64,000 bases of DNA, from contig OZ020487.1 in the NCBI GenBank assembly GCA_963971405.1, positions 19,515,371-19,579,370 on the forward strand, read 5' to 3'. Of this stretch, positions 1-64,000 are shown in pieces. The notes beneath the pieces are model-generated. The model was not told the origin of the DNA. It did no database searches and saw only the letters and a program-made list of their open reading frames with translations. Position 1 is the first letter of the stretch. The number at the start of each line of letters is the position of its first letter. Both the position numbers and the translations under genes were made by a program. The DNA is from Psococerastis gibbosa. Taxonomy: Eukaryota; Arthropoda; Insecta; Psocodea; Psocidae.

Positions 1-91
1 GACACCTATATCTTTTTAAAACCTTTAAAAAAAATAAAATAAGTAATTAGCTATTTTTCGTATTCTTGCCGTATGAATTTTTTTAAGCTAC

Positions 92-110
92 ATTTACACC
101 GATGAACACG
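92..110 (+). other. Conserved core TTTACACCGATGAACACGC (representative)
   Basis: This 19-bp block at about monomer 92-110 is nearly unchanged across all classes, including the divergent class D. The common exception is ACGCCGATG in right-hand B units; CCGGTG (1434), ACAACG (near 42372) and CGACGAAC (near 33573) are rare. It is also among the more GC-rich parts of the monomer and contains two CpGs. Conservation across classes suggests selection or a binding site, but gene conversion alone could also produce it. Confidence 0.75.
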
Positions 111-113
111 CAG

Positions 114-125
114 GAGCAATTGCTC
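114..125. other. 12-bp perfect palindrome GAGCAATTGCTC (representative)
   Basis: GAGCAATTGCTC equals its own reverse complement. It occurs at monomer positions 114-125 in class A and most class C units. It is weakened in B (GAACAATTGCTC), in D and E (GAGCAATTGCCT) and in left-hand A' (GAGCAATTGCTG). A symmetrical site like this suits a dimeric DNA-binding protein or a cruciform, but no binding protein is known to me. Confidence 0.9.
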
Positions 126-149
126 AATGTTACGTACAATACATTGAGC
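122..149. other. 9-bp inverted repeat GCTCAATGT / ACATTGAGC (representative)
   Basis: GCTCAATGT at 122-130 and ACATTGAGC at 141-149 are perfect reverse complements separated by 10 bp. Its left arm shares GCTC with the right half of the 12-bp palindrome, so one strand cannot form both hairpins at once. The full 9-bp stem is found in class A units ending ACATTGAGCC; most B, C and D units end ACAATGAGCC, with one mismatch in the stem. Confidence 0.88.
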
Positions 150-167
150 CAAAATAAGCAAAATTAA

Positions 168-334
168 GACACCTATATCTTTTTAAAACCTTTAAAAAAA
201 ATAAAATAAGTAAATAGCTATTTTTCGTATTCTTGTCGAATGAATTTTTTGTAGCTACATTTACACTGATGAACACGCTGGAGCAATTGCCTAATGTTAG
301 ATACAGTACAATGAGCCAAAATAAGCAAAATTTA
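168..334 (+). repeat. Chimeric monomer E (A/B-type head, D-type body)
   Basis: The first half (CACCTATATC head, full A-tract, AAGTAAATAG) is that of A/B/C classes, whereas the second half (TTTTGTAGCTAC, GCTGGAGCAATTGCCTAATG, GATACAGTAC) is that of class D. It is 167 bp because it keeps the long head. The same chimera recurs after an A unit at 2830, 3661, 6489, 9981 and later copies, so it arose once and was then amplified with the HOR. Confidence 0.9.
212..223. other. 12-bp palindrome AAATAGCTATTT (representative)
   Basis: AAATAGCTATTT is a perfect palindrome at monomer positions 45-56 in class B, C and E units. Class D keeps only the inner ATAGCTAT, and class A (AATTAGCTATTT) only TAGCTA. 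Its distribution is partly complementary to that of GAGCAATTGCTC. Confidence 0.9.
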
Positions 335-668
335 GACACCTATATCTTTTTAAAACCTTTAAAAAAAATAAAATAAGGAATTAGCTATTTTTCGTATTCT
401 TTCCGTACGAATTTTTTTAAGCTACATTTACACCGATGAACACGCAGGAGCAATTGCTCAATGTTAAGTACAATACATTGAGCCAAAATAAGCAAAATAA
501 AGACACCTATATCTTTTTAAAACCTTTAAAAAAAATAAAATAAGTAAATAGCTATTTTTCTTATTCTTGTCGAACGAATTTTTTTTAGCTACATTTACAC
601 CGATGAACACGCAGGAGCAATTGCTCAATGTTAAGTACAATACAGTGAGCCAAAATAAGCAAAATAAA

Positions 669-832
669 GACACTCATATCATATCAAGACCTTTAAAAAA
701 AAAATAAGTATATAGCTATTTTTCGTATTCTTGTCGAATGAATTTTTTGTAGCTACATTTACACCGATGAACACGCTGGAGCAATTGCCTAATGTTAGAT
801 ACAGTACAATGAGCCAAAATAAGCAAAATTAA
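669..832 (+). repeat. Class D monomer (reference copy, 164 bp)
   Basis: The most divergent class. Its head reads CACTCATATCATATCAAG, then a shortened A-tract and AAGTATATAG in place of the longer A-rich segment of the others, which accounts for the 164-165 bp length. The body reads GTCGAATGAATTTTTTGTAGC and the tail GCTGGAGCAATTGCCTAATG, so the 12-bp palindrome loses its last pairs and the downstream 9-bp inverted repeat is broken. D acts as the punctuation mark of the HOR, recurring every 3-5 monomers through the window. Confidence 0.94.
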
Positions 833-999
833 GACACCTATATCTTTTTAAAACCTTTAAAAAAAATAAAATAAGTAATTAGCTATTTTTCGTATTCTTG
901 CCGTATGAATTTTTTTAAGCTTCATTTACACCGATGAACACGCAAGAGCAATTGCCTAATGTTAGATACAGTACAATGAGCCAAAATAAGCAAAATTAA

Positions 1000-1166
1000 G
1001 ACACCTATATCTTTTTAAAACCTTTAAAAAAAATAAAATAAGTAATTAGCTATTTTTCGTATTCTTGCCGTATGAATTTTTTTAAGCTTCATTTACACCG
1101 ATGAACACGCAAGAGCAATTGCTGAATGTTAAGTACAATACATAGAGCCAAAATAAGCAAAATAAA
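1000..1166 (+). repeat. Class A' monomer (AAGCTTC subclass)
   Basis: Like class A up to monomer position 80, but AAGCTTCATTT replaces AAGCTACATTT, creating a HindIII-type AAGCTT palindrome. In the left third the tail is GCAAGAGCAATTGCTG, which breaks the outermost pair of the 12-bp palindrome. From about 33.4 kb onward A' units instead read GAAGGAGCAATTGCTC, restoring it. The subclass therefore changes across the array. Confidence 0.93.
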
Positions 1167-1333
1167 GACACCTATATCTTTTTAAAACCTTTAAAAAAAA
1201 TAAAATAAGTAAATAGCTATTTTTCTTATTCTTGTCGAATGAATTTTTTTTAGCCACATTTACACCGATGAACACGCAAGAACAATTGCTCAATGTTAAG
1301 TACAATACAATGAGCCAAAATAAGCAAAATTAA
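1167..1333 (+). repeat. Class B monomer (reference copy)
   Basis: Class B is defined by AAGTAAATAG, CTTATTCTTGTCGAATG, TTAGCCACATTT and GAACAATTGCTC. The AACAATTGCTC change breaks the 12-bp palindrome seen in A and C, while the upstream AAATAGCTATTT palindrome is intact. Right-hand copies (first seen near 13.9 kb, common after 26.7 kb) carry ACGCCGATG and often GTGTTAAGAAC, and many have a shortened A/T tract, giving units of 162-164 bp. Confidence 0.93.
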
Positions 1334-1500
1334 GACACCTATATCTTTTTAAAACCTTTAAAAAAAATAAAATAAGTAAATAGCTATTTTTCTTATTCTT
1401 GTCGAATGAATTTTTTTTAGCTACATTTACACCGGTGAACACGCAGGAGCAATTGCTCAATGTTAAGTGCAATACAGTGAGCCAAAATAAGCAAAATTAA
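1334..1500 (+). repeat. Class C monomer (reference copy)
   Basis: Class C shares the CTTATTCTTGTCGAATG middle with class B but has TTAGCTAC (or TTCAGCTAC in a second subclass) and CAGGAGCAATTGCTC. It has both 12-bp palindromes, AAATAGCTATTT and GAGCAATTGCTC. The left-hand subclass ends GTGCAATACAGTGAGCC; I do not see that tail beyond about 30.3 kb. Class C is almost always followed by class D. Confidence 0.93.
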
Positions 1501-3493
1501 GACACTCATATCATATCAAGACCTTTAAAAAAAAAAATAAGTATATAGCTATTTTTCGTATTCTTGTCGAATGAATTTTTTGTAGCTACATTTACACCGA
1601 TGAACACGCTGGAGCAATTGCGTAATGTTAGATACAATACAATGAGCCAAAAAAAGCAAAATTAAGACACCTATATCTTATTAATACCTTTAAAAAAAAT
1701 AAAATAAGTAATTAGCTATTTTTCGTATTCTTGCCGTATGAATTTTTTTAAGCTATATTTACACCGATGAACACGCAGGAGCAATTGCTCAATGTTAAGT
1801 ACAATACATTGAGCCAAAATAAGCAAAATAAAGACACCTATATCTTTTTAAAACCTTTAAAAAAAATAAAATAAGCAAATAGCTATTTTTCTTATTCTTG
1901 TCGAATGAATTTTTTTTAGCTACATTTACACCGATGAACACGCAGGAGCAATTGCTCAATGTTAAGTACAATACAATGAGCCAAAATAAGCAAAATTAAG
2001 ACACTCATATCATATCAAGACCTTTAAAAAAAAAATAAGTATATAGCTATTTTTCGTATTCTTGTCGAATGAATTTTTTGTAGCTACATTTACACCGATG
2101 AACACACTGGAGCAATTGCCTAATGTTAGATACAGTACAAAGAGCCAAAATAAGCAAAATTAAGACACCTATATCTTTTTAAAACCTTTAAAAAAAATAA
2201 AATAAGTAAATAGCTATTTTTCTTATTCTTGTCGAATGAATTTTTTTTAGCCACATTTACACCGATGAACACGCAAGAACAATTGCTCAATGTTAAGTAC
2301 AATACAGTGAGCCAAAATAAGCAAAATTAAGACACCTATATCTTTTTAAAACCTTTAAAAAAAATAAAATAAGTAAATAGCTATTTTTCTTATTCTTGTC
2401 GAATGAATTTTTTTTAGCTACATTTACACCGATGAACACGCAGGAGCAATTGCTTAATGTTAAGTGCAATACAGTGAGCCAAAATAAGCAAAATTAAGAC
2501 ACCCATATCATATCAAGACCTTTAAAAAAAAAAATAAGTATATAGCTATTTTTCGTATTCTTGTCGAATGAATTTTTTGTAGCTACATTTACACCGATGA
2601 ACACGCTGGAGCAATTGCATAATGTTAGATACAATACAATCAGCCTAAAAAAGCAAAATTAAGACACCTATATCTTTTTAAAACCTTTAAAAAAAATAAA
2701 ATAAGTAATTAGCTATTTTTCGTATTCTTGCCGTATGAATTTTTTTAAGCTACATTTACACCGATGAACACGCAGGAGCAATTGCTCAATGTTATGTACA
2801 ATACATTGAGCCAAAATAAGCAAAATTAAGACACCTATATCTTTTTAAAACCTTTAAAAAAAATAAAATAAGTAAATAGCTATTTTTCGTATTCTTGTCG
2901 AATGAATTTTTGTAGCTACATTTACACCGATGAACACGCTGGAGCAATTGCCTAATGTTAGATACAGTACAATGAGCCAAAATAAGCAAAATTTAGACAC
3001 CTATATCTTTTTAAAACCTTTAAAAAAAATAAAATAAGTAAATAGCTATTTTTCTTATTCTTGTCGAATGAATTTTTTTAGCCACATTTACACCGATGAA
3101 CACGCAAGAACAATTGCTCAATGTTTAGTACAATACAATGAGCCAAAATAAGCAAAATTAAGACACCTGTATCTTTTTAAAACCTTTAAAAAAAATAAAA
3201 TAAGTAAATAGCTATTTTTCTTATTCTTGTCGAATGAATTTTTTTTAGCTACATTTACACCGATGAACACGCAGGAGCAATTGCTCAATGTTAAGTGCAA
3301 TACAGTGAGCCAAAATAAGCAAAATTAAGACACCCATATCATATCAAGACCTTTAAAAAAAAAAATAAGTATATAGCTATTTTTCGTATTCTTGTCGAAT
3401 GAATTTTTTGTAGCTACATTTACACCGATGAACACGCTGGAGCAATTGCATAATGTTAGATACAATACAATGAGCCAAAAAAAGCAAAATTAA

Positions 3494-6321
3494 GACACCT
3501 ATATCTTTTTAAAACCTTTAAAAAAAATAAAATAAGTAATTAGCTATTTTTCGTATTCTTGCCGTATGAATTTTTTTAAGCTACATTTACACCGATGAAC
3601 ACGCAGGAGCAATTGCTCAATGTTACGTACAATACATTGAGCCAAAATAAGCAAAATTAAGACACCTATATCTTTTTAAAACCTTTAAAAAAAATAAAAT
3701 AAGTAAATAGCTATTTTTCGTATTCTTGTCGAATGAATTTTTTGAAGCTACATTTACACCGATGAACACGCTGGAGCAATTGCCTAATGTTAGATACAGT
3801 ACAATGAGCCAAAATAAGCAAAATTTAGACACCTATATCTTTTTAAAACCTTTAAAAAAAATAAAATAAGGAATTAGCTATTTTTCGTATTCTTTCCGTA
3901 TGAATTTTTTTAAGCTACATTTACACCGATGAACACGCAGGAGCAATTGCTCAATGTTAAGTACAATACATTGAGCCAAAATAAGCAAAATAAAGACACC
4001 TATATCTTTTTAAAACCTTTAAAAAAAATAAAATAAGTAAATAGCTATTTTTCTTATTCTTGTCGAACGAATTTTTTTTAGCTACATTTACACCGATGAA
4101 CACGCAGGAGCAATTGCTCAATGTTAAGTACAATACAGTGAGCCAAAATAAGCAAAATAAAGACACTCATATCATATCAAGACCTTTAAAAAAAAAATAA
4201 GTATATAGCTATTTTTCGTATTCTTGTCGAATGAATTTTTTGTAGCTACATTTACACCGATGAACACGCTGGAGCAATTGCCTAATGTTAGATACAGTAC
4301 AATGAGCCAAAATAAGCAAAATTAAGACACCTATATCTTTTTAAAACCTTTAAAAAAAATAAAATAAGTAATTAGCTATTTTTCGTATTCTTGCCGTATG
4401 AATTTTTTTAAGCTTCATTTACACCGATGAACACGCAAGAGCAATTGCCTAATGTTAGATACAGTACAATGAGCCAAAATAAGCAAAATTAAGACACCTA
4501 TATCTTTTTAAAACCTTTAAAAAAAATAAAATAAGTAATTAGCTATTTTTCGTATTCATGCCGTATGAATTTTTTTAAGCTTCATTTACACCGATGAACA
4601 CGCAAGAGCAATTGCTGAATGTTAAGTACAATACATAGAGCCAAAATAAGCAAAATAAAGACACCTATATCTTTTTAAAACCTTTAAAAAAAATAAAATA
4701 AGTAAATAGCTATTTTTCTTATTCTTGTCGAATGAATTTTTTTTAGCCACATTTACACCGATGAACACGCAAGAACAATTGCTCAATGTTAAGTACAATA
4801 CAATGAGCCAAAATAAGCAAAATTAAGACACCTATATCTTTTTAAAACCTTTAAAAAAAATAAAATAAGTAAATAGCTATTTTTCTTATTCTTGTCGAAT
4901 GAATTTTTTTTAGCTACATTTACACCGGTGAACACGCAGGAGCAATTGCTCAATGTTAAGTGCAATACAGTGAGCCAAAATAAGCAAAATTAAGACACTC
5001 ATATCATATCAAGACCTTTAAAAAAAAAAATAAGTATATAGCTATTTTTCGTATTCTTGTCGAATGAATTTTTTGTAGCTACATTTACACCGATGAACAC
5101 GCTGGAGCAATTGCGTAATGTTAGATACAATACAATGAGCCAAAAAAAGCAAAATTAAGACACCTATATCTTATTAATACCTTTAAAAAAAATAAAATAA
5201 GTAATTAGCTATTTTTCGTATTCTTGCCGTATGAATTTTTTTAAGCTATATTTACACCGATGAACACGCAGGAGCAATTGCTCAATGTTAAGTACAATAC
5301 ATTGAGCCAAAATAAGCAAAATAAAGACACCTATATCTTTTTAAAACCTTTAAAAAAAATAAAATAAGCAAATAGCTATTTTTCTTATTCTTGTCGAATG
5401 AATTTTTTTTAGCTACATTTACACCGATGAACACGCAGGAGCAATTGCTCAATGTTAAGTACAATACAATGAGCCAAAATAAGCAAAATTAAGACACTCA
5501 TATCATATCAAGACCTTTAAAAAAAAAATAAGTATATAGCTATTTTTCGTATTCTTGTCGAATGAATTTTTTGTAGCTACATTTACACCGATGAACACGC
5601 TGGAGCAATTGCATAATGTTAGATACAATACAATCAGCCTAAAAAAGCAAAATTAAGACACCTATATCTTTTTAAAACCTTTAAAAAAAATAAAATAAGT
5701 AAATAGCTATTTTTCGTATTCTTGTCGAATGAATTTTTGTAGCTACATTTACACCGATGAACACGCTGGAGCAATTGCCTAATGTTAGATACAGTACAAT
5801 GAGCCAAAATAAGCAAAATTTAGACACCTATATCTTTTTAAAACCTTTAAAAAAAATAAAATAAGTAAATAGCTATTTTTCTTATTCTTGTCGAATGAAT
5901 TTTTTTTAGCCACATTTACACCGATGAACACGCAAGAACAATTTCTCAATGTTTAGTACAATACAATGAGCCAAAATAAGCAAAATTAAGACACCTGTAT
6001 CTTTTTAAAACCTTTAAAAAAAATAAAATAAGTAAATAGCTATTTTTCTTATTCTTGTCGAATGAATTTTTTTTAGCTACATTTACACCGATGAACACGC
6101 AGGAGCAATTGCTCAATGTTAAGTGCAATACAGTGAGCCAAAATAAGCAAAATTAAGACACCCATATCATATCAAGACCTTTAAAAAAAAAAATAAGTAT
6201 ATAGCTATTTTTCGTATTCTTGTCGAATGAATTTTTTGTAGCTACATTTACACCGATGAACACGCTGGAGCAATTGCATAATGTTAGATACAATACAATG
6301 AGCCAAAAAAAGCAAAATTAA
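3494..6321 (+). repeat. Left HOR unit 2 (17 monomers, 2,828 bp)
   Basis: Near-identical to unit 1 until about 5493, at an offset of 3,493 bp. There a D unit begins like the one at 2000 but ends like the one at 2498 (AATCAGCCTAAAAAAGC), and the next unit matches 2830. The difference from unit 1 is 665 bp, exactly four monomers, as expected for unequal crossover in register. Confidence 0.9.
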
Positions 6322-9300
6322 GACACCTATATCTTTTTAAAACCTTTAAAAAAAATAAAATAAGTAATTAGCTATTTTTCGTATTCTTGCCGTATGAATT
6401 TTTTTAAGCTACATTTACACCGATGAACACGCAGGAGCAATTGCTCAATGTTACGTACAATACATTGAGCCAAAATAAGCAAAATTAAGACACCTATATC
6501 TTTTTAAAACCTTTAAAAAAAATAAAATAAGTAAATAGCTATTTTTCGTATTCTTGTCGAATGAATTTTTTGTAGCTACATTTACACCGATGAACACGCT
6601 GGAGCAATTGCCTAATGTTAGATACAGTACAATGAGCCAAAATAAGCAAAATTTAGACACCTATATCTTTTTAAAACCTTTAAAAAAAATAAAATAAGGA
6701 ATTAGCTATTTTTCGTATTCTTTCCGTATGAATTTTTTTAAGCTACATTTACACCGATGAACACGCAGGAGCAATTGCTCAATGTTAAGTACAATACATT
6801 GAGCCAAAATAAGCAAAAATTAGACACTCATATCATATCATGACCTTTAAAAAAAAAAATAAGTATATAGCTATTTTTCGTATTCTTGTCGAAAGAATTT
6901 TTTTCAGCTACATTTACACCGATGAACACGCAGGAGCAATTGCTCAATGTTAAGTACAATACAATGAGCCAAAATAAGCAAAATTAAGACACTCATATCA
7001 TATCATGACCTTTAAAAAAAAAAATAAGTATATAGCTATTTTTCGTATTCTTGTCGAATGAATTTTTTGTAGCTACATTTACACCGATGAACACGCTGGA
7101 GCAATTGCCTAATGTTAGATACAGTACAATGAGCCAAAGTAAGCAAAATTTAGACACCTATATCTTTTTAAAACCTTTAAAAAAAATAAAATAAGTAATT
7201 AGCTATTTTTCGTATTCTTGCCGTATGAATTTTTTTAAGCTTCATTTACACTGATGAACACGCAAGAGCAATTGCTGAATGTTAAGTACAATACATTGAG
7301 CCAAAATAAGCAAAATAAAGACACCTATATCTTTTTAAAACCTTTAAAAAAAATAAAATAAGTAAATAGCTATTTTTCTTATTCTTGTCGAATGAATTTT
7401 TTTTAGCCACATTTACACCGATGAACACGCAAGAACAATTGCTCAATGTTAAGTACAATACAATGAGCCAAAATAAGCAAAATTAGGACACCTATATCTT
7501 TTTAAAACCTTTAAAAAAAATAAAATAAGTAAATAGCTATTTTTCTTAGTCTTGTCGAACGAATTTTTTTTAGCTACATTTACACCGATGAACACGCAGG
7601 AGCAATTGCTCAATGTTAAGTACAATACAGTGAGCCAAAATAAGCAAAATAAAGACACTCATATCATATCAAGACCTTTAAAAAAAAAATAAGTATATAG
7701 CTATTTTTCGTATTCTTGTCGAATGAATTTTTTGTAGCTACATTTACACCGATGAACACGCTGGAGCAATTGCCTAATGTTAGATACAGTACAATGAGCC
7801 AAAATAAGCAAAATTAAGACACCTATATCTTTTTAAAACCTTTAAAAAAAATAAAATAAGTAATTAGCTATTTTTCGTATTCTTGCCGTATGAATTTTTT
7901 TAAGCTTCATTTACACCGATGAACACGCAAGAGCAATTGCCTAATGTTAGATACAGTACAATGAGCCAAAATAAGCAAAATTAAGACACCTATATCTTTT
8001 TAAAACCTTTAAAAAAAATAAAATAAGTAATTAGCTATTTTTCGTATTCTTGCCGTATGAATTTTTTTAAGCTTCATTTACACCGATGAACACGCAAGAG
8101 CAATTGCTGAATGTTAAGTACAATACATAGAGCCAAAATAAGCAAAATAAAGACACCTATATCTTTTTAAAACCTTTAAAAAAAATAAAATAAGTAAATA
8201 GCTATTTTTCTTATTCTTGTCGAATGAATTTTTTTTAGCCACATTTACACCGATGAACACGCAAGAACAATTGCTCAATGTTAAGTACAATACAATGAGC
8301 CAAAATAAGCAAAATTAAGACACCTATATCTTTTTAAAACCTTTAAAAAAAATAAAATAAGTAAATAGCTATTTTTCTTATTCTTGTCGAATGAATTTTT
8401 TTTAGCTACATTTACACCGGTGAACACGCAGGAGCAATTGCTCAATGTTAAGTGCAATACAGTGAGCCAAAATAAGCAAAATTAAGACACTCATATCATA
8501 TCAAGACCTTTAAAAAAAAAAATAAGTATATAGCTATTTTTCGTATTCTTGTCGAATGAATTTTTTGTAGCTACATTTACACCGATGAACACGCTGGAGC
8601 AATTGCGTAATGTTAGATACAATACAATGAGCCAAAAAAAGCAAAATTAAGACACCTATATCTTATTAATACCTTTAAAAAAAATAAAATAAGTAATTAG
8701 CTATTTTTCGTATTCTTGCCGTATGAATTTTTTTAAGCTATATTTACACCGATGAACACGCAGGAGCAATTGCTCAATGTTAAGTACAATACATTGAGCC
8801 AAAATAAGCAAAATAAAGACACCTATATCTTTTTAAAACCTTTAAAAAAAATAAAATAAGCAAATAGCTATTTTTCTTATTCTTGTCGAATGAATTTTTT
8901 TTAGCTACATTTACACCGATGAACACGCAGGAGCAATTGCTCAATGTTAAGTACAATACAATGAGCCAAAATAAGCAAAATTAAGACACTCATATCATAT
9001 CAAGACCTTTAAAAAAAAAATAAGTATATAGCTATTTTTCGTATTCTTGTCGAATGAATTTTTTGTAGCTACATTTACACCGATGAACACGCTGGAGCAA
9101 TTGCATAATGTTAGATACAATACAATCAGCCTAAAAAAGCAAAATTAAGACACCTATATCTTTTTAAAACCTTTAAAAAAAATAAAATAAGTAAATAGCT
9201 ATTTTTCGTATTCTTGTCGAATGAATTTTTGTAGCTACATTTACACCGATGAACACGCTGGAGCAATTGCCTAATGTTAGATACAGTACAATGAGCCAAA

Positions 9301-9813
9301 ATAAGCAAAATTTAGACACCTATATCTTTTTAAAACCTTTAAAAAAAATAAAATAAGTAAATAGCTATTTTTCTTATTCTTGTCGAATGAATTTTTTTTA
9401 GCCACATTTACACCGATGAACACGCAAGAACAATTTCTCAATGTTTAGTACAATACAATGAGCCAAAATAAGCAAAATTAAGACACCTGTATCTTTTTAA
9501 AACCTTTAAAAAAAATAAAATAAGTAAATAGCTATTTTTCTTATTCTTGTCGAATGAATTTTTTTTAGCTACATTTACACCGATGAACACGCAGGAGCAA
9601 TTGCTCAATGTTAAGTGCAATACAGTGAGCCAAAATAAGCAAAATTAAGACACCCATATCATATCAAGACCTTTAAAAAAAAAAATAAGTATATAGCTAT
9701 TTTTCGTATTCTTGTCGAATGAATTTTTTGTAGCTACATTTACACCGATGAACACGCTGGAGCAATTGCATAATGTTAGATACAATACAATGAGCCAAAA
9801 AAAGCAAAATTAA
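6322..9813 (+). repeat. Left HOR unit 3 (21 monomers, 3,492 bp)
   Basis: Matches unit 2, including its fused D unit, but has an extra four-monomer segment (D/C chimera at 6823, D at 6988, A' at 7153, B at 7320) between the third A and the following C. It therefore has the same length class as unit 1 but different content, so equal size does not mean the same unit. Confidence 0.9.
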
Positions 9814-11145
9814 GACACCTATATCTTTTTAAAACCTTTAAAAAAAATAAAATAAGTAATTAGCTATTTTTCGTATTCTTGCCGTATGAATTTTTTTAAG
9901 CTACATTTACACCGATGAACACGCAGGAGCAATTGCTCAATGTTACGTACAATACATTGAGCCAAAATAAGCAAAATTAAGACACCTATATCTTTTTAAA
10001 ACCTTTAAAAAAAATAAAATAAGTAAATAGCTATTTTTCGTATTCTTGTCGAATGAATTTTTTGTAGCTACATTTACACCGATGAACACGCTGGAGCAAT
10101 TGCCTAATGTTAGATACAGTACAATGAGCCAAAATAAGCAAAATTTAGACACCTATATCTTTTTAAAACCTTTAAAAAAAATAAAATAAGGAATTAGCTA
10201 TTTTTCGTATTCTTTCCGTATGAATTTTTTTAAGCTACATTTACACCGATGAACACGCAGGAGCAATTGCTCAATGTTAAGTACAATACATTGAGCCAAA
10301 ATAAGCAAAATTAAGACACTCATATCATATCATGACCTTTAAAAAAAAAAATAAGTATATAGCTATTTTTCGTATTCTTGTCGAAAGAATTTTTTTCAGC
10401 TACATTTACACCGATGAACACGCAGGAGCAATTGCTCAATGTTAAGTACAATACAATGAGCCAAAATAAGCAAAATTAAGACACTCATATCATATCATGA
10501 CCTTTAAAAAAAAAAATAAGTATATAGCTATTTTTCGTATTCTTGTCGAATGAATTTTTTGTAGCTACATTTACACCGATGAACACGCTGGAGCAATTGC
10601 CTAATGTTAGATACAGTACAATGAGCCAAAGTAAGCAAAATTTAGACACCTATATCTTTTTAAAACCTTTAAAAAAAATAAAATAAGTAATTAGCTATTT
10701 TTCGTATTCTTGCCGTATGAATTTTTTTAAGCTTCATTTACACTGATGAACACGCAAGAGCAATTGCTGAATGTTAAGTACAATACATTGAGCCAAAATA
10801 AGCAAAATAAAGACACCTATATCTTTTTAAAACCTTTAAAAAAAATAAAATAAGTAAATAGCTATTTTTCTTATTCTTGTCGAATGAATTTTTTTTAGCC
10901 ACATTTACACCGATGAACACGCAAGAACAATTGCTCAATGTTAAGTACAATACAATGAGCCAAAATAAGCAAAATTAGGACACCTATATCTTTTTAAAAC
11001 CTTTAAAAAAAATAAAATAAGTAAATAGCTATTTTTCTTAGTCTTGTCGAATGAATTTTTTTTAGCTACATTTACACCGATGAACACGCAGTAGCAATTG
11101 CTTAATGTTAAGTGCAATACAGTGAGCCAAAATAAGCAAAATTAA
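9814..11145 (+). repeat. Left HOR unit 4, partial (8 monomers)
   Basis: Follows unit 3 at an offset of 3,492 bp through A, E, A, D/C chimera, D, A', B and C. It then departs within the C unit beginning about 10979, where CAGTAGCAATTGCTTAATG appears, and passes into the next HOR domain. Confidence 0.85.
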
Positions 11146-51416: not shown

Positions 51417-54401
51417 GACACCTATATCTTTTTAAAACCTTTAAAAAAAATAAAATATGTAAATAGCTATTTTTCTTATTCTTGTCGAATGAATTTTTTT
51501 CAGCTACATTTACACCGATGAACACGCAGGAGCAATTGCTCAATGTTAAGTACAATACAATGAGCCAAAATAAGCAAAATTAAGACACTCATATCATATC
51601 AAGACCTTTAAAAAAAAAAATAAGTATATAGCTATTTTTCGTATTCTTGTCGAATGAATTTTTTGTAGCTACATTTACACCGATGAACACGCTGTAGCAA
51701 TTGCCTAATGTTAGATACAGTACAGTGAGCCAAAATAAGCAAAATTAAGACACCTATATCTTTTTAAAACCTTTAAAAAAAAATAAAATAAGTAATTAGC
51801 TATTTTTCGTATTCTTGCCGTATGAATTTTTTTAAGCTTCATTTACACCGATGAACACGAAGGAGCAATTGCTCAATGTTAAGTACAATACATTGAGCCA
51901 AAATAAGCAAAATAAAGACACCTATATCTTTTTAAAACCTTTAAAAAAAAAATAAGTAAATAGCTATTTTTCTTATTCTTGTCGAATGAATTTTTTTTAG
52001 CCACATTTACGCCGATGAACACGCAGGAACAATTGCTCAGTGTTAAGTACAATACAATGAGCCAAAATAAGCAAAATTAAGACACCTATATCTTTTTAAA
52101 ACCTTTAAAAAAAATAAAATAAGTAATTAGCTATTTTTCGTATTCTTGCCGTATGAATTTTTTTAAGCTATATTTACACCGATGAACACGCAGGAGCAAT
52201 TGCTCAATGTTAAGTACAATACATTGAGCCAAAATAAGCAAAATAAAGACACCTATATCTTTTTAAAACCTTTAAAAAAAAATAAGCAAATAGCTATTTT
52301 TCTTATTCTTGTCGAATGAATTTTTTTTAGCTACATTTACACCGATGAACACGCAGGAGCAATTGCTCAATGTTAAGTACAATACAATGAGCCAAAATAA
52401 GCAAAATTAAGACACTCATATCATATCAAGACCTTTAAAAAAAAAAATAAGTATATAGCTATTTTTCGTATTCTTGTCGAATGAATTTTTTGTAGCTACA
52501 TTTACACCGATGAACACGCTGGAGCAATTGCCTAATGTTAGATACAATACAATGAGCCAAAATAAGCCAAATTTAGACACCTATATCTTTTTAAAACCTT
52601 TAAAAAAAATAAAATAAGTAATTAGCTATTTTTCGTATTCTTGCCGTATGAATTTTTTTAAGCTACATTTACACCGATGAACACGCAGGAGCAATTGCTC
52701 AATGTTAAGTACAATACTTGGAGCCAAAATAAGCAAAATAAAGACACCTATATCTTTTTAAAACCTTTAAAAAAAAAAAATAAGTAAATAGCTATTTTTC
52801 TTATTCTTGTCGAATGAATTTTTTTTAGCCACATTTACACCGATGAACACGCAGGAACAATTGCTCAATGTTAAGTACAATACAATGAGCCAAAATTAGC
52901 AAAATTAAGACACCTATATCTTTTTAAAACCTTTAAAAAAAATAAAATAAGTAAATAGCTATTTTTCTTATTCTTGTCGAATGAATTTTTTTCAGCTACA
53001 TTTACACCGATGAACACGCAGGAGCAATTGCTCAATGTTAAGTACAATACAATGAGCCAAAATAAGCAAAATTAAGACACTCATATCATATCAAGACCTT
53101 TAAAAAAAAAAATAAGTATATAGCTATTTTTCGTATTCTTGTCGAATGAATTTTTTGTAGCTACATTTACACCGATGAACACGCTGTAGCAATTGCCTAA
53201 TGTTAGATACAGTACAGTGAGCCAAAATAAGCAAAATTAAGACACCTATATCTTTTTAAAACCTTTAAAAAAAAATAAAATAAGTAATTAGCTATTTTTC
53301 GTATTCTTGCCGTATGAATTTTTTTAAGCTTCATTTACACCGATGAACACGAAGGAGCAATTGCTCAATGTTAAGTACAATACATTGAGCCAAAATAAGC
53401 AAAATAAAGACACCTATATCTTTTTAAAACCTTTAAAAAAAAAATATGTAAATAGCTATTTTTCTTATTCTTGTCGAATGAATTTTTTTTAGCCACATTT
53501 ACGCCGATGAACACGCAGGAACAATTGCTCAGTGTTAAGTACAATACAATGAGCCAAAATAAGCAAAATTAAGACACCTATATCTTTTTAAAACCTTTAA
53601 AAAAAATAAAATAAGTAATTAGCTATTTTTCGTATTCTTGCCGTATGAATTTTTTTAAGCTATATTTACACCGATGAACACGCAGGAGCAATTGCTCAAT
53701 GTTAAGTACAATACTTTGAGCCAAAATAAGCAAAATAAAGACACCTATGTCTTTTTAAAACCTTTAAAAAAAAATAAGTAAATAGCTATTTTTCTTATTC
53801 TTGTCGAATGAATTTTTTTTAGCCACATTTACGCCGATGAACACGCAGGAACAATTGCTCAGTGTTAAGAACAATACAATGAGCCAAAATAAGCAAAATT
53901 AAGACACCTATATCTTTTTAAAAACTTTAAAAAAAATAAAATAAGCAAATAGCTATTTTTCTTATTCTTGTCGAATGAATTTTTTTTAGCTACATTTACA
54001 CCGATGAACACGCAGGAGCAATTGCTCAATGTTAAGTACAATACAATGAGCCAAAATAAGCAAAATTAAGACACTCATATCATATCAAGACCTTTAAAAA
54101 AAAAAATAAGTATATAGCTATTTTTCGTATTCTTGTCGAATGAATTTTTTGTAGCTACATTTACACCGATGAACACGCTGGAGCAATTGCCTAATGTTAG
54201 ATACAATACAATAAGCCAAAATAAGCAAAATTAAGACACCTATATCTTTTTAAAACCTTTAAAAAAAATAAAATAAGTAATTAGCTATTTTTCGTATTCT
54301 TGCCGTATGAATTTTTTTAAGCTACATTTACACCGATGAACACGCAGGAGCAATTGCTCAATGTTAATTACAATACTTGGAGCCAAAATAAGCAAAATAA
54401 A
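51417..54401 (+). repeat. Second 8-mer copy plus 10 further monomers
   Basis: The first eight units repeat 50091-51416. The following B C D A' B A B C D A includes the markers ACACCTATGTC (53741), TACTTTGAGCC and TTAATTACAATACTTGG. The whole stretch recurs at 56065-59049 at an offset of 4,648 bp. Confidence 0.88.
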
Positions 54402-57400
54402 GACACCTATATCTTTTTAAAACCTTTAAAAAAAAAAATAAGTAAATAGCTATTTTTCTTATTCTTGTCGAATGAATTTTTTTTAGCTACATTTACACCG
54501 ATGAACACGCAGGAGCAATTGGTCAATGTTAAGTACGATACATTGAGCCAAAATAAGCAAAATTAAGACACTCATATCATATCAAGACCTTTAAAAAAAA
54601 AAATAAGTATATAGCTATTTTTCGTATTCTTGTCGAATGAATTTTTTGTAGCTACATTTACACCGATGAACACGCTGGAGCAATTGCATAATGTTAGATA
54701 CAATACAATGAGCCAAAAAAAGCAAAATTAAGACACCTATATCTTCTTAATACCTTTAAAAAAAATAAAATAAGTAATTAGCTATTTTTCGTATTCTTGC
54801 CGTATGAATTTTTTTAAGCCACATTTACGCCGATGAACACGCAGGAACAATTGCTCAGTGTTAAGAACAATACAATGAGCCAAAATAAGCAAAATTAAGA
54901 CACCAATATCTTTTTAAAACCTTTAAAAAAAATAAAATAAGTAAATAGCTATTTTTCGTATTCTTGCCGTATGAATTTTTTTTAGCTACATTTACACCGA
55001 TGAACACGCAGGAGCAATTGCTCAATGTTAAGTACAATACAATGAGCCAAAATAAGCAAAATTAAGACACTCATATCATATCAAGACCTTTAAAAAAAAA
55101 AATAAGTATATAGCTATTTTTCGAATTCTTGTCGAATGAATTTTTTGTAGCTACATTTACACCGATGAACACGCTGGAGCAATTGCCTAATGTTAGATAC
55201 AATACAATGAGCCAAAATAAGCAAAATTAAGACACCTATATCTTTTTAAAACCTTTAAAAAAAATAAAATAAGTAATTAGCTATTTTTCGTATTCTTGCC
55301 GTATGAATTTTTTTAAGCTTCATTTACACCGATGAACACGAAGGAGCAATTGCTCAATGTTAAGTACAATACATTGAGCCAAAATAAGCAAAATAAAGGC
55401 ACCTATATCTTTTCAAAACCTTTAAAAAAAATAAAATAAGTAAATAGCTATTTTTCTTATTCTTGTCGAATGAATTTTTTTTTGCCACATTTACACCGAT
55501 GAACACGCAAGAACAATTGCTCAATGTTAAGTACAATACAATGAGCCAAAATAAGCAAAATTAAGACACCTATATCTTTTAAACACCTTTAAAAAAAATA
55601 AAATAAGTAAATAGCTATTTTTCTTATTCTTGTCGAATGAATTTTTTTTTAGCTACATTTACACCGATGAACACGCAGGAGCAATTGGTCAATGTTAAGT
55701 ATAATACAATGAGCCAAAATAAGCAAAATAAAGACACTCATATCATATCAAGACCTTTAAAAAAAAAAATAAGTATATAGCTATTTTTCGTATTCTTGTC
55801 GAATGAATTTTTTGTAGCTACATTTACACCGATGAACACGCTGGAGCAATTGCCTAATGTTAGATACAATACAATGAGCCAAAATAAGCAAAATTAAGAC
55901 ACCTATATCTTTTTAAAACCTTTAAAAAAAATAAAATAAGTAATTAGCTATTTTTCGTATTCTTGCCGTATGAATTTTTTTAAGCTACATTTACACCGAT
56001 GAACACGCAGGAGCAATTGCTCAATGTTAAGTACAATACTTGGAGCCAAAATTAGCAAAATTAAGACACCTATATCTTTTTAAAACCTTTAAAAAAAATA
56101 AAATATGTAAATAGCTATTTTTCTTATTCTTGTCGAATGAATTTTTTTCAGCTACATTTACACCGATGAACACGCAGGAGCAATTGCTCAATGTTAAGTA
56201 CAACACAATGAGCCAAAATAAGCAAAATTAAGACACTCATATCATATCAAGACCTTTAAAAAAAAAAATAAGTATATAGCTATTTTTCGTATTCTTGTCG
56301 AATGAATTTTTTGTAGCTACATTTACACCGATGAACACGCTGTAGCAATTGCCTAATGTTAGATACAGTACAGTGAGCCAAAATAAGCAAAATTAAGACA
56401 CCTATATCTTTTTAAAACCTTTAAAAAAAAATAAAATAAGTAATTAGCTATTTTTCGTATTCTTGCCGTATGAATTTTTTTAAGCTTCATTTACACCGAT
56501 GAACACGAAGGAGCAATTGCTCAATGTTAAGTACAATACATTGAGCCAAAATAAGCAAAATAAAGACACCTATATCTTTTTAAAACCTTTAAAAAAAAAA
56601 TAAGTAAATAGCTATTTTTCTTATTCTTGTCGAATGAATTTTTTTTAGCCACATTTACGCCGATGAACACGCAGGAACAATTGCTCAGTGTTAAGTACAA
56701 TACAATGAGCCAAAATAAGCAAAATTAAGACACCTATATCTTTTTAAAACCTTTAAAAAAAATAAAATAAGTAATTAGCTATTTTTCGTATTCTTGCCGT
56801 ATGAATTTTTTTAAGCTATATTTACACCGATGAACACGCAGGAGCAATTGCTCAATGTTAAGTACAATACATTGAGCCAAAATAAGCAAAATAAAGACAC
56901 CTATATCTTTTTAAAACCTTTAAAAAAAAATAAGCAAATAGCTATTTTTCTTATTCTTGTCGAATGAATTTTTTTTAGCTACATTTACACCGATGAACAC
57001 GCAGGAGCAATTGCTCAATGTTAAGTACAATACAATGAGCCAAAATAAGCAAAATTAAGACACTCATATCATATCAAGACCTTTAAAAAAAAAAATAAGT
57101 ATATAGCTATTTTTCGTATTCTTGTCGAATGAATTTTTTGTAGCTACATTTACACCGATGAACACGCTGGAGCAATTGCCTAATGTTAGATACAATACAA
57201 TGAGCCAAAATAAGCCAAATTTAGACACCTATATCTTTTTAAAACCTTTAAAAAAAATAAAATAAGTAATTAGCTATTTTTCGTATTCTTGCCGTATGAA
57301 TTTTTTTAAGCTACATTTACACCGATGAACACGCAGGAGCAACTGCTCAATGTTAAGTACAATACTTGGAGCCAAAATAAGCAAAATAAAGACACCTATA

Positions 57401-59049
57401 TCTTTTTAAAACCTTTAAAAAAAAAAAATAAGTAAATAGCTATTTTTCTTATTCTTGTCGAATGAATTTTTTTTAGCCACATTTACACCGATGAACACGC
57501 AGGAACAATTGCTCAATGTTAAGTACAATACAATGAGCCAAAATTAGCAAAATTAAGACACCTATATCTTTTTAAAACCTTTAAAAAAAATAAAATAAGT
57601 AAATAGCTATTTTTCTTATTCTTGTCGAATGAATTTTTTTCAGCTACATTTACACCGATGAACACGCAGGAGCAATTGCTCAATGTTAAGTACAATACAA
57701 TGAGCCAAAATAAGCAAAATTAAGACACTCATATCATATCAAGACCTTTAAAAAAAAAAATAAGTATATAGCTATTTTTCGTATTCTTGTCGAATGAATT
57801 TTTTGTAGCTACATTTACACCGATGAACACGCTGTAGCAATTGCCTAATGTTAGATACAGTACAGTGAGCCAAAATAAGCAAAATTAAGACACCTATATC
57901 TTTTTAAAACCTTTAAAAAAAAATAAAATAAGTAATTAGCTATTTTTCGTATTCTTGCCGTATGAATTTTTTTAAGCTTCATTTACACCGATGAACACGA
58001 AGGAGCAATTGCTCAATGTTAAGTACAATACATTGAGCCAAAATAAGCAAAATAAAGACACCTATATCTTTTTAAAACCTTTAAAAAAAAAATATGTAAA
58101 TAGCTATTTTTCTTATTCTTGTCGAATGAATTTTTTTTAGCCACATTTACGCCGATGAACACGCAGGAACAATTGCTCAGTGTTAAGTACCATACAATGA
58201 GCCAAAATAAGCAAAATTAAGACACCTATATCTTTTTAAAACCTTTAAAAAAAATAAAATAAGTAATTAGCTATTTTTCGTATTCTTGCCGTATGAATTT
58301 TTTTAAGCTATATTTACACCGATGAACACGCAGGAGCAATTGCTCAATCTTAAGTACAATACTTTGAGCCAAAATAAGCAAAATAAAGACACCTATGTCT
58401 TTTTAAAACCTTTAAAAAAAAATAAGTAAATAGCTATTTTTCTTATTCTTGTCGAATGAATTTTTTTTAGCCACATTTACGCCGATGAACACGCAGGAAC
58501 AATTGCTCAGTGTTAAGAACAATACAATGAGCCAAAATAAGCAAAATTAAGACACCTATATCTTTTTAAAAACTTTAAAAAAAATAAAATAAGCAAATAG
58601 CTATTTTTCTTATTCTTGTCGAATGAATTTTTTTTAGCTACATTTACACCGATGAACACGCAGGAGCAATTGCTCAATGTTAAGTACAATACAATGAGCC
58701 AAAATAAGCAAAATTAAGACACTCATATCATATCAAGACCTTTAAAAAAAAAAATAAGTATATAGCTATTTTTCGTATTCTTGTCGAATGAATTTTTTGT
58801 AGCTACATTTACACCGATGAACACGCTGGAGCAATTGCCTAATGTTAGATGCAATACAATAAGCCAAAATAAGCAAAATTAAGACACCTATATCTTTTTA
58901 AAACCTTTAAAAAAAATAAAATAAGTAATTAGCTATTTTTCGTATTCTTGCCGTATGAATTTTTTTAAGCTACATTTACACCGATGAACACGCAGGAGCA
59001 ATTGCTCAATGTTAATTACAATACTTGGAGCCAAAATAAGCAAAATAAA
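54402..59049 (+). repeat. Large HOR, second copy (4,648 bp, 28 monomers)
   Basis: Repeats about 48.47-54.40 kb. Up to about 56.06 kb the offset is 5,973-5,974 bp; beyond it the best offset is 4,648 bp, the difference being the 1,326-bp segment present twice in the first copy. The unit at 54402 is a B-head, C-body chimera, which marks the junction between the two large copies. GAATTC recurs at 55123 and ACACCTATGTC near 58389. Confidence 0.88.
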
Positions 59050-60871
59050 GACACCTATATCTTTTTAAAACCTTTAAAAAAAAAAAATAAGTAAATAGCT
59101 ATTTTTCTTATTCTTGTCGAATGAATTTTTTTTAGCCACATTTACACCGATGAACACGCAGGAACAATTGCTCAATGTTAAGTACAATACAATGAGCCAA
59201 AATTAGCAAAATTAAGACACCTATATCTTTTTAAAACCTTTAAAAAAAATAAAATAAGTAAATAGCTATTTTTCTTATTCTTGACGAATGAATTTTTTTC
59301 AGCTACATTTACACCGATGAACACGCAGGAGCAATTGCTCAATGTTAAGTACAATACATTGAGCCAAAATGAGCAAAATAAAGACACCTATATCTTTTTA
59401 AAACCTTTAAAAAAAAATAAGTAAATAGCTATTTTTCTTATTCTTGTCGAATGAATTTTTTTTAGCCACATTTACGCCGATGAACACGCAGGAACAATTG
59501 CTCAGTGTTAAGAACAATACAATGAGCCAAAATAAGCAAAATTAAGACACCTATATCTTTTTAAAAACTTTAAAAAAAATAAAATAAGCAAATAGCTATT
59601 TTTCTTATTCTTGTCGAATGAATTTTTTTTAGCTACATTTACACCGATGAACACGCAGGAGCAATTGCTCAATGTTAAGTACAATACAATGAGCCAAAAT
59701 AAGCAAAATTAAGACACTCATATCATATCAAGACCTTTAAAAAAAAAAATAAGTATATAGCTATTTTTCGTATTCTTGTCGAATGAATTTTTTGTAGCTA
59801 CATTTACACCGATGAACACGCTGGAGCAATTGCCTAATGTTAGATACAGTACAGTGAGCCAAAATAAGCAAAATTAAGACACCTATATCTTTTTAAAACC
59901 TTTAAAAAAAAATAAAATAAGTAATTAGCTATTTTTCGTATTCTTGCCGTATGAATTTTTTTAAGCTTCATTTACACCGATGAACACGAAGGAGCAATTG
60001 CTCAATGTTAAGTACAATACATTGAGCCAAAATAAGCAAAATTAAGACACCTATATCTTTTTAAAAACTTTAAAAAAAAAATAAGTAAATAGCTATTTTT
60101 CTTATTCTTGTCGAATGAATTTTTTTTAGCCACATTTACGCCGATGAACACGCAGGAACAATTGCTCAGTGTTAAGTACAATACAATGAGCCAAAATAAG
60201 CAAAATTAAGACACCTATATCTTTTTAAAACCTTTAAAAAAAATAAAATAAGTAATTAGCTATTTTTCGTATTCTTGCCGTATGAATTTTTTTAAGCTAT
60301 ATTTACACCGATGAACACGCAGGAGCAATTGCTCAATGTTAAGTACAATACATTGAGCCAAAATAAGCAAAATAAAGACACCTATATCTTTTTAAAACCT
60401 TTAAAAAAAAATAAGTAAATAGCTATTTTTCTTATTCTTGTCGAATGAATTTTTTTTAGCCACATTTACACCGATGAACACGCAGGAACAATTGCTCAGT
60501 GTTAAGAACAATACAATGAGCCAAAATAAGTAAAATTAAGACACCTATATCTTTTTAAAAACTTTAAAAAAAATAAAATAAGCAAATAGCTATTTTTCTT
60601 ATTCTCGTCGAATGAATTTTTTTTAGCTACATTTACACCGATGAACACGCAGGAGCAATTGCTCAATGTTAAGTACAATACAATGAGCCAAAATAAGCAA
60701 AATTAAGACACTCATATCATATCAAGACCTTTAAAAAAAAAAATAAGTATATAGCTATTTTTCGTATTCTTGTCGAATGAATTTTTTGTAGCTACATTTA
60801 CACCGATGAACACGCTGGAGCAATTGCCTAATGTTAGATACAATACAATGAGCCAAAATAAGCAAAATTAA
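59050..60871 (+). repeat. HOR segment (11 monomers)
   Basis: Order B C B C D A' B A B C D. The C unit near 59283 has CTTGACGAATG, otherwise seen only in the 2,327-bp repeats, and ends in the unusual AAAATGAGC. A B unit near 60060 has AAAACTTTAAAAAA. This looks like a rearranged relative of the following 10-mer. Confidence 0.82.
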
Positions 60872-62529
60872 GACACCTATATCTTTTTAAAACCTTTAAA
60901 AAAAATAAAATAAGTAATTAGCTATTTTTCGTATTCTTGCCGTATGAATTTTTTTAAGCTACATTTACACCGATGAACACGCAGGAGCAATTGCTCAATG
61001 TTAAGTACAATACTTGGAGCCAAAATAAGCAAAATAAAGACACCTATATCTTTTTAAAACCTTTAAAAAAAAAAAATAAGTAAATAGCTATTTTTCTTAT
61101 TCTTGTCGAATGAATTTTTTTTAGCCACATTTACACCGATGAACACGCAGGAACAATTGCTCAATGTTAAGTACAATACAATGAGCCAAAATTAGCAAAA
61201 TTAAGACACCTATATCTTTTTAAAACCTTTAAAAAAAATAAAATAAGTAAATAGCTATTTTTCTTATTCTTGTCGAATGAATTTTTTTCAGCTACATTTA
61301 CACCGATGAACACGCAGGAGCAATTGCTCAATGTTAAGTACAATACAATGAGCCAAAATAAGCAAAATTAAGACACTCATATCATATCAAGACCTTTAAA
61401 AAAAAAAATAAGTATATAGCTATTTTTCGTATTCTTGTCGAATGAATTTTTTGTAGCTACATTTACACCGATGAACACGCTGTAGCAATTGCCTAATGTT
61501 AGATACAGTACAGTGAGCCAAAATAAGCAAAATTAAGACACCTATATCTTTTTAAAACCTTTAAAAAAAAATAAAATAAGTAATTAGCTATTTTTCGTAT
61601 TCTTGCCGTATGAATTTTTTTAAGCTTCATTTACACCGATGAACACGAAGGAGCAATTGCTCAATGTTAAGTACAATACATTGAGCCAAAATAAGCAAAA
61701 TAAAGACACCTTTATCTTTTTAAAACCTTTAAAAAAAAAATAAGTAAATAGCTATTTTTCTTATTCTTGTCGAATGAATTTTTTTTAGCCACATTTACGC
61801 CGATGAACACGCAGGAACAATTGCTCAGTGTTAAGTACAATACAATGAGCCAAAATAAGCAAAATTAAGACACCTATATCTTTTTAAAACCTTTAAAAAA
61901 AATAAAATAAGTAATTAGCAATTTTTCGTATTCTTGCCGTATGAATTTTTTTAAGCTATATTTACACCGATGAACACGCAGGAGCAATTGCTCAATGTTA
62001 AGTACAATACATTGAGCCAAAATAAGCAAAATAAAGACACCTATATCTTTTTAAAACCTTTAAAAAAAAATAAGTAAATAGCTATTTTTCTTATTCTTGT
62101 CGAATGAATTTTTTTAGCCACATTTACGCCGATGAACACGCAGGAACAATTGCTCAGTGTTAAGAACAATACAATGAGCCAAAATAAGCAAAATTAAGAC
62201 ACCTATATCTTTTTAAAAACTTTAAAAAAAATAAAATAAGCAAATAGCTATTTTTCTTATTCTTGTCGAATGAATTTTTTTTAGCTACATTTACACCGAT
62301 GAACACGCAGGAGCAATTGCTCAATGTTAAGTACAATACAATGAGCCAAAATAAGCAAAATTAAGACACTCATATCATATCAAGACCTATAAAAAAAAAA
62401 ATAAGTATATAGCTATTTTTCGTATTCTTGTCGAATGAATTTTTTGTAGCTACATTTACACCGATGAACACGCTGGAGCAATTGCCTAATGTTAGATACA
62501 ATACAATGAGCCAAAATAAGCAAAATTAA
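60872..62529 (+). repeat. 1,658-bp 10-mer HOR, copy 1
   Basis: Unit starts at 60872, 61039, 61205, 61372, 61537, 61705, 61869, 62036, 62198 and 62365 give the order A B C D A' B A B C D and a sum of 1,658 bp. The D unit at 61372 carries GCTGTAGC, a subclass first seen near 50.4 kb. This 10-mer resembles the 1,659-bp unit at 28-31 kb in length but differs in order. Confidence 0.9.
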
Positions 62530-64000
62530 GACACCTATATCTTTTTAAAACCTTTAAAAAAAATAAAATAAGTAATTAGCTATTTTTCGTATTCTTGCCG
62601 TATGAATTTTTTTAAGCTACATTTACACCGATGAACACGCAGGAGCAATTGCTCAATGTTAATAACAATACTTGGAGCCAAAATAAGCAAAATAAAGACA
62701 CCTATATCTTTTTAAAACCTTTAAAAAAAAAAAATAAGTAAATAGCTATTTTTCTTATTCTTGTCGAATGAATTTTTTTTAGCCACATTTACACCGATGA
62801 ACACGCAGGAACAATTGCTCAATGTTAAGTACAATACAATGAGCCAAAATTAGCAAAATTAAGACACCTATATCTTTTTAAAACCTTTAAAAAAAATAAA
62901 ATAAGTAAATAGCTATTTTTCTTATTCTTGTCGAATGAATTTTTTTCAGCTACATTTACACCGATGAACACGCAGGAGCAATTGCTCAATGTTAAGTACA
63001 ATACAATGAGCCAAAATAAGCAAAATTAAGACACTCATATCATATCAAGACCTTTAAAAAAAAAAAATAAGTATATAGCTATTTTTCGTATTCTTGTCGA
63101 ATGAATTTTTTGTAGCTACATTTACACCGATGAACACGCTGTAGCAATTGCCTAATGTTAGATACAGTACAGTGAGCCAAAATAAGCAAAATTAAGACAC
63201 CTATATCTTTTTAAAACCTTTAAAAAAAAAAAAATAAGTAATTAGCTATTTTTCGTATTCTTGCCGTATGAATTTTTTTAAGCTTCATTTACACCGATGA
63301 ACACGAAGGAGCAATTGCTCAATGTTAAGTACAATACATTGAGCCAAAATAAGCAAAATAAAGACACCTATATCTTTTTAAAACCTTTAAAAAAAAAATA
63401 AGTAAATAGCTATTTTTCTTATTCTTGTCGAATGAATTTTTTTTAGCCACATTTACGCCGATGAACACGCAGGAACAATTGCTCAGTGTTAAGTACAATA
63501 CAATGAGCCAAAATAAGCAAAATTAAGACACCTATATCTTTTTAAAACCTTTAAAAAAAAATAAAATAAGCAAATAGCTATTTTTCTTATTCTTGTCGAA
63601 TGAATTTTTTTTAGCTACATTTACACCGATGAACACGCAGGAGCAATTGCTCAATGTTAAGTACAATACAGTGAGCCAAAATAAGCAAAATTAAGACACT
63701 CATATCATATCAAGACCTTTAAAAAAAAAAATAAGTATATAGCTATTTTTCGTATTCTTGTCGAATGAATTTTTTGTAGCTACATTTACACCGATGAACA
63801 CGCTGGAGCAATTGCCTAATGTTAGATACAGTACAGTGAGCCAAAATAAGCAAAATTAAGACACCTATATCTTTTTAAAACCTTTAAAAAAAATAAAATA
63901 AGTAAATAGCTATTTTTCTTATTCTTGTCGAATGAATTTTTTTTAGCTACATTTACACCGATGAACACGCAGGAGCAATTGCTCAATGTTAAGTACAATA
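62530..64000 (+). repeat. 1,658-bp 10-mer HOR, copy 2, running off the window
   Basis: Starts A B C D A' B as in the preceding copy (offset 1,658 bp, GCTGTAGC near 63139), then passes directly to C D, skipping the A B pair, and enters another C at about 63858 that is cut by the window edge. The array therefore continues to the right. Confidence 0.87.

Follow-up and report, generated by a model that had tools for sequence, protein, structure and literature searches.

Higher-order repeat (HOR) structure in a satellite is often taken as a signature of the centromere; what, then, is an array that carries a similar signature in a species described as holocentric? The question is raised by a stretch of 64,000 nucleotides from the barkfly Psococerastis gibbosa (GCA_963971405.1, contig OZ020487.1, positions 19,515,371 to 19,579,370 of the forward strand), which was analysed at its full length and is referred to below as the window. 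It lies on C12 (chromosome 4) of the 409.21-Mb assembly iuPsoGibb1.1, which has 68 contigs and TTAGG telomeres; 69 scaffolds are given in the assembly paper (PMC12559846). The array is very probably heterochromatin, repeatedly remade by unequal exchange.

The composition of the array was determined by two methods. By Tandem Repeats Finder (TRF), a 167-bp unit was found to span positions 1-64000 with 384.8 copies and 88% matches. By wrap-around decomposition, the window was divided into 386 monomers that form an uninterrupted head-to-tail array on a single strand (+), AT-rich with 28% GC; 380 of the monomers measure 160-169 bp. Scans of the window detected no open reading frame of at least 80 aa, no tRNA and no Rfam family reaching its gathering score. 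No published description of this satellite was found in the open-licence literature, searched mostly as titles and openings of abstracts, and it is apparently an undescribed satellite of P. gibbosa, for which we propose the name Pgib167.

Clustering of the 381 full-length monomers gave the main classes A (138 monomers), B (97), C (85) and D (27), followed by E (16) and F (9); five further groups are rare, with 1-3 monomers each. The four monomer classes recognized in the initial annotation are a fair description of the array, the remainder being 29 monomers of classes E, F, G and J, which are 5'/3' hybrids of C with other classes, and five rare, non-hybrid monomers of classes H, I and K. Among the hybrids, 19 carry a non-C 5' part and a C 3' part and 10 are reciprocal, which suggests that exchange takes place inside monomers as well. 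A 4-monomer rhythm lies beneath the array, the class match at a lag of four monomers being 0.40 against 0.247 expected. Linkage disequilibrium between adjacent monomer sites showed low r2 in the middle of the monomer. The r2 was 0.28 between the 5' and 3' ends within one monomer and 0.105 between a 3' end and the 5' end of the next. This persisting correlation within the unit means that most monomers keep their class.

Local HORs are a well-known feature of satellite arrays. To describe those of the window, a duplicated run was defined as at least five monomers in matching order with at most three edits per monomer, and was called local at a lag of up to 40 monomers. A total of 133 run pairs was detected, 52 local and 81 at longer lags, against no run in each of 20 shuffles of the monomer order. 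Twelve distinct local periods bear runs of at least eight monomers, and 287 of the 386 monomers fall within local duplications of this length. When the window was extended by 20 kb on each side, the whole 104 kb was gap-free satellite, with 446 of 626 monomers in local duplications at 15 distinct lags. The periods lie near whole monomer numbers, and no single one dominates: 3492/3493 bp (21-mer), 2827/2828 (17-mer), 1897 (12-mer, with truncated monomers), 1658 and 1659 (10-mers), 1828 and 1825 (11-mers), 2327/2328 (14-mer), 5973-5975 (36-mer), 4648 (28-mer) and 3648/3660 (22-mer).

The off-diagonals named in the initial annotation were all recovered, either as exact repeats of considerable length or as runs of nearly identical monomers, and an 8-mer (1326 bp) and a 39-mer composite (6488 bp) were added to its list. 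Decomposition into monomer classes likewise gave many periods instead of a single HOR period. Copy number was counted as 1 + run length/lag; for the 12 longest local runs it was 1.5-2.4 per unit, with a median of 1.86, and three copies were reached by one stretch (502-1999) when both of its lags (21 and 42) were counted. Of the proposal that most units are repeated two or three times, the low copy number holds, while the usual number is about two. The description of layered, low-copy local HORs, unlike a mature homogeneous HOR array, stands, and it fits exchange between monomers. No HOR period amplified to many near-identical copies was found among the 12 lags. These local 'HORs' are tandem segmental duplications, in register and of many lengths, and not amplified HOR units. 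Their coordinates are collected in Table 1.

Table 1. Satellite array, local duplications and irregular monomers in the window (lags up to 42 in monomers, larger lags in bp)
Feature	Position	Strand	Basis
167-bp AT-rich satellite array, 386 monomers	1..64000	+	TRF and wrap-around decomposition
21-mer local HOR, lag 3492/3493	1..10978	+	lag-21 runs 1-1999 and 3995-7486; mean edits 0.33 and 0.19
Part of 21-mer region in three copies	502-1999	+	also matches at lag 42
17-mer (2827) nested in 21-mer region	2830-3994	+	
39-mer composite (6488) from 22-mer (3660) and 17-mer (2828) steps	10480..20129	+	10480-13641 lag 39; 13310-15304 lag 17; 10480-11644 lag 22
12-mer duplication, lag 1897, shortened by truncated monomers	23290..26185	+	6 monomers, mean edits 0.00
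Irregular-monomer cluster (147, 143, 108, 145, 173 bp)	24289..27162	+	decomposition; TRF sub-periods 123, 108, 138
10-mer duplication, lag 1658	27997..31477	+	11 monomers, mean edits 0.27
11-mer duplication, lag 1828	31979..35966	+	13 monomers, mean edits 0.85
11-mer duplication, lag 1825	37797..41446	+	11 monomers, mean edits 0.36
14-mer duplication, lag 2328	44438..49258	+	15 monomers, mean edits 0.53
36-mer, lag 5975	48427..57391	+	18 monomers, mean edits 0.56
8-mer (1326) nested in 36-mer	49759-51416	+	10 monomers, mean edits 0.40
28-mer duplication, lag 4648	51085..59049	+	20 monomers, mean edits 0.25
22-mer duplication, lag 3648	57059..62863	+	13 monomers, mean edits 1.15
10-mer duplication, lag 1659, 2.4 copies	59546..63527	+	14 monomers, mean edits 1.29

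All monomers of the window that depart from 160-169 bp lie in the irregular cluster of Table 1, save the last one, which is cut. A 12-bp perfect palindrome, GAGCAATTGCTC, was noted at positions 114-125 and at 160 other places, 161 copies in the window; it belongs to the consensus of classes A and B and is absent from that of class C. DNA folding of one monomer-length stretch was unremarkable (z 0.13).

Duplications of this kind were very probably generated by repeated out-of-register homologous exchange, either unequal sister-chromatid exchange or break-induced copying, which would duplicate or delete runs of monomers in register. Because the periods are close to whole monomer numbers, pairing by homology is indicated. 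The events would mostly cover about 8-40 units, within the range searched as local, and each would leave a roughly two-copy 'HOR'; many periods would coexist because later events overwrite those left by earlier ones. Rarer exchange inside monomers probably produced the hybrid classes.

We built a model in which runs of monomers are tandemly duplicated or deleted at random while the length of the array stays constant, with 43 sites per monomer, and ran it under 24 hand-chosen settings with two starting arrays and six replicates each. The best-fitting simulation used a mean of 14 monomers and one mutation per event without added conversion, and gave 116 runs (observed 133), 41-46 local runs (52), 11-13 lags (12), a median of 1.8 copies (1.86), a maximum of 2.5-2.8 copies (2.40) and a longest run of 24-28 monomers (21); all six observed summary values were within the ranges of the six replicates. 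Addition of short gene conversion made the fit worse and was abandoned. As the settings were hand-chosen and 43 sites were used per monomer, the agreement means that the process can suffice, and not that its rates are right. The simulated process would give such an array at any time. Since random duplication and deletion comes close to the observed statistics, no special moment of rearrangement is needed. The initial view of an array caught in active rearrangement thus becomes superfluous: a memoryless process gives nearly the same statistics, and variable local runs were observed also in 10-20-kb pieces of other arrays on chromosomes 4, 6, 2, 3 and Y.

Satellite arrays are hard to assemble, and the mosaic of periods might be suspected to come from mis-joined or collapsed high-fidelity (HiFi) contigs, the more so as the assembly has 358 gaps (PMC12559846). 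The HiFi data comprise 22.19 Gb in 2.36 million reads with a mean of about 9.4 kb (PMC12559846), whereas exact repeats in the window reach at most 2,260 bp, far below the mean read. There is no N in the 104 kb around the window nor in 10 kb at each array edge, most duplicate runs carry distinguishing variants (the lag-1897 run does not), and similar structure is found in array pieces on other chromosomes. We regard an artefact as very improbable.

The window is part of a much longer block, extending on chromosome 4 from about 18,781,650 to 21,022,050 (2.24 Mb), with sharp edges that have no N within 10 kb and no telomere tract. Satellite was found at 13 of 15 sampled points inside the block (not at 19.10 and 19.15 Mb) and at none of 17 points outside it, a sparse sampling that would miss small arrays. 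Word sharing with the window was 0.90-0.94 in the adjoining 10-kb pieces and 0.48-0.69 at most other points; it was high again at 20.45 Mb (0.85; a point located through its match to the window), 20.90 Mb (0.76) and 20.95 Mb (0.89), and was 0.55-0.88 at the left edge. As similarity to the window is patchy along the block, a young core with older flanks was dropped as an explanation. The window is a fairly homogeneous patch within a megabase block, probably heterochromatic, of an abundant P. gibbosa satellite. Near the right edge (C12:21016001-21022050), word sharing repeats every ~3.0 kb, about 18 monomers, up to a sharp border with other DNA. The block was also considered as the scar of a chromosome fusion, an idea rejected when no two consecutive TTAGG/CCTAA units were found in 10 kb at either edge.

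The satellite is abundant genome-wide. A core 21-mer gave 106,319 matches with at most two mismatches, 53,819 of them exact, against 0 for the reversed control; on the assumption of one match per monomer, this puts the satellite at about 17.7 Mb, ~4.3% of the assembly, as a lower bound. Blocks were found at the left ends of chromosomes 2, 3, 5, 6 and X, inside chromosome 6, and 0.86 Mb from the right end of chromosome 8. At the left end of chromosome 3, telomere repeats fill the first 4 kb, and the first satellite match among those listed is at 10,136. The sampled ends of chromosomes 1 and 7 had no satellite, and none was detected at five sampled places of chromosome 1 (C1), the largest chromosome. 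Because the first 100 places listed for the exact matches begin on C2, while the listed telomere matches begin on C1, the assembled chromosome 1 seems to be without the satellite.

In P. gibbosa, C-banding work titled 'Holocentric chromosomes of psocids', as cited in reviews, detected little AT-rich C-heterochromatin, in tiny terminal blocks (PMC8490342; also PMC6910881). An AT-rich repeat at chromosome ends, as in the terminal C-heterochromatin of psocids, was found here at several ends, the chromosome 4 block being internal, and the satellite is a molecular candidate for the reported terminal C-bands. The satellite is on the minus strand at five of six left ends (C2, C3, the unplaced C4 with telomere, C13, and C14 mostly), with X as the exception, and on the plus strand toward the right end of C19 (near 34.44 Mb). 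Exchange between chromosome ends would preserve such a seemingly consistent orientation.

The internal block of chromosome 6 (C14, about 11.9-12.7 Mb) was compared with the window through a 20-kb piece, picked because matches to the window had been seen there. When the first 60 monomers of this piece were compared, 95% had a window partner within three edits, in contrast to 2% of 59 monomers in a 10-kb piece of chromosome 4 at 20.00 Mb, ~420 kb from the window and chosen regardless of match. The corresponding values were 0% of 59 monomers for Y, 2% of 58 for chromosome 2 and 12% of 60 for chromosome 3. The chromosome 6 block is patchy too, with 0.53-0.79 of window words shared at three other points; part of it shares the monomer set of the window almost exactly, but not its order. 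For three chromosome 4 queries from two subfamilies, 26-39 candidates out of thousands were scored each time, and among these the nearest chromosome apart from 4 itself was always chromosome 6. The HOR family of the window is thus common to chromosomes 4 and 6 and not specific to one chromosome; the cause is either sequence exchange between the two internal blocks or faulty scaffolding of some of the satellite.

Satellites are in general weakly placed by Hi-C, and the 95% sharing would be expected if the internal block on the chromosome 6 scaffold had been displaced from the chromosome 4 array or represented another haplotype of it. Collinearity speaks against it: in the 20 kb compared, no collinear run exceeds eight monomers and no exact match exceeds 771 bp, although this objection is weakened by some chromosome 4 blocks that show no greater collinearity among themselves (8-22). 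Match spacing also differs between the two chromosomes, and the proximity to chromosome 6 extends over queries from both subfamilies. Displacement is possible but on balance rather unlikely.

The Y is separate in this respect: a Y query matched Y only (143 of 143 matches, among 29 scored candidates of thousands). Satellite was present at 9 of 20 evenly spaced points of the assembled Y (C21, 12.03 Mb). The assembly names a Y chromosome, yet published cytology gives X0 males, 2n = 16 + X(0) (PMC6910881, PMC8490342). Candidate identities of the assembled Y are a neo-Y, a B chromosome and a scaffold rich in satellite.

Does the array serve as a centromere? The chromosomes of P. gibbosa are described as holocentric or holokinetic (PMC8490342, PMC6910881), and Psocodea is treated in the literature as a holocentric order. 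In the holocentric insects studied by Drinnenberg et al., lice included, CenH3 was not found (PMC4359364). A histone-fold search of the genome gave 37 matches, and no CENP-A-like gene was seen among the 22 examined (20 places); the H3-type matches, inspected by eye, were canonical, near-canonical or degenerate, and the remaining 15 resembled core-histone matches in score and span. A histone cluster was located near the start of C19, with several degenerate H3-like copies elsewhere. The search for the CENP-C cupin family PF11699 gave no match, which is weak evidence because the control genomes named are prokaryotes. In the window, 19 CENP-B-box-like sites were counted, each of which had two mismatches, fewer than the 38 that chance would give. 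Neither a coding nor a kinetochore role was detected for the array, which presumably lacks function. From the holocentric description, the histone-fold result, the missing CENP-B box and the uneven presence among chromosomes, the array is therefore probably heterochromatin.

A functional regional centromere of primate type, which recruits the kinetochore and whose evolving HORs are rearranged through centromere-linked recombination, would also account for the nucleosome-length monomer, the HOR organization, the patches of unequal homogeneity and the compact 2.24-Mb block with 17 of 17 sampled outside points negative. This reading is nevertheless quite improbable for an insect described as holocentric, in a holocentric order, with the histone-fold result given above, with CENP-B-box-like sites fewer than chance, with a chromosome 1 seemingly devoid of the satellite and with two blocks on chromosome 6. 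Marginally less probable again is a repeat-based holocentromere in which the array would be one of a few large units. Such an organization would agree with the presence of megabase-sized satellite blocks in a holocentric species, and Chionographis japonica has 7-11 such units per chromatid (PMC10264360). On chromosome 4, however, one block was found and not several, though the sampling was sparse, and both the histone-fold result and the apparent absence from assembled chromosome 1 are contrary to it.

Heterochromatin remade by unequal exchange remains the preferred explanation, and several observations weigh against it. The chromosome 4 block is internal (38-43% along the chromosome) and 2.24 Mb long, unlike the tiny terminal C-bands described, and a monocentric centromere would likewise appear as a single compact block. 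Drinnenberg et al. themselves describe the evidence that lice are holocentric as relatively modest (PMC4359364). A six-frame search can miss a CENP-A gene, and 15 of the 37 histone matches were outside those examined. Among the simulations, only 2 of the 24 hand-chosen settings came close, the other 22 averaging too few runs; an earlier simulation with more private variation, which was discarded, averaged 13-63 runs against the 133 observed. The mid-monomer dip in linkage disequilibrium was tried as proof of exchange within monomers and given up as ambiguous, since the ends still correlate.

A wider reading is offered tentatively, with somewhat less than even confidence: that centromere-style hierarchical satellite evolution takes place in a holocentric insect without CENP-A, HORs arising incidentally wherever a large tandem array undergoes exchange, and that the internal blocks of chromosomes 4 and 6 exchange more with each other than with distant parts of their own arrays. 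If HOR structure arises without CENP-A in this manner, HORs are no mark of a centromere. Barkflies could be a natural control for separating the contribution of centromere function from the behaviour of tandem arrays themselves. For specialists, the interest lies in the formation of HORs in a holocentric insect for which no CENP-A-like gene was seen, in the sharing between chromosomes 4 and 6, and in the satellite-rich 'Y'.

Among known systems, the CEN178 arrays of Arabidopsis thaliana consist of nucleosome-length monomers with many low-copy local duplicated runs and patchy similarity, and carry CENH3. The barkfly array resembles them in monomer length, in low-copy monomer runs of varied length and in patchy similarity along the array, and differs from them in its setting: a species described as holocentric, in which no CENP-A-like gene was seen among the histone-fold matches examined and several of the blocks occupy chromosome ends. 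Primate alpha-satellite arrays, including those with 'cascading' HORs (PMC11157248), share the hierarchical units and a similar monomer (~171 bp against 167 bp here). The parallel with primate centromeric HORs drawn at the outset does not extend further: units here are present in about two copies, a CENP-B box and a CENP-A-like gene were not seen, the family is common to another chromosome, no sign of a centromere was seen and the barkfly is a species with chromosomes described as holocentric. Holocentric chromosomes with satellite arrays are known also from Rhynchospora (Tyba) and from Chionographis japonica (PMC10264360). The barkfly differs from the holocentromeres of both in that no CENP-A-like gene was seen, and from Chionographis in the one block found on chromosome 4 against 7-11 evenly spaced units and in the monomer of 167 bp against 23/28 bp. 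HOR-type structure in a holocentric insect has its counterpart in TinfSat09-113 of Triatoma infestans, an HOR built on a 25-bp unit (PMC9957312); unlike that short composite unit, the barkfly array is composed of multi-kilobase runs of nucleosome-length monomers.

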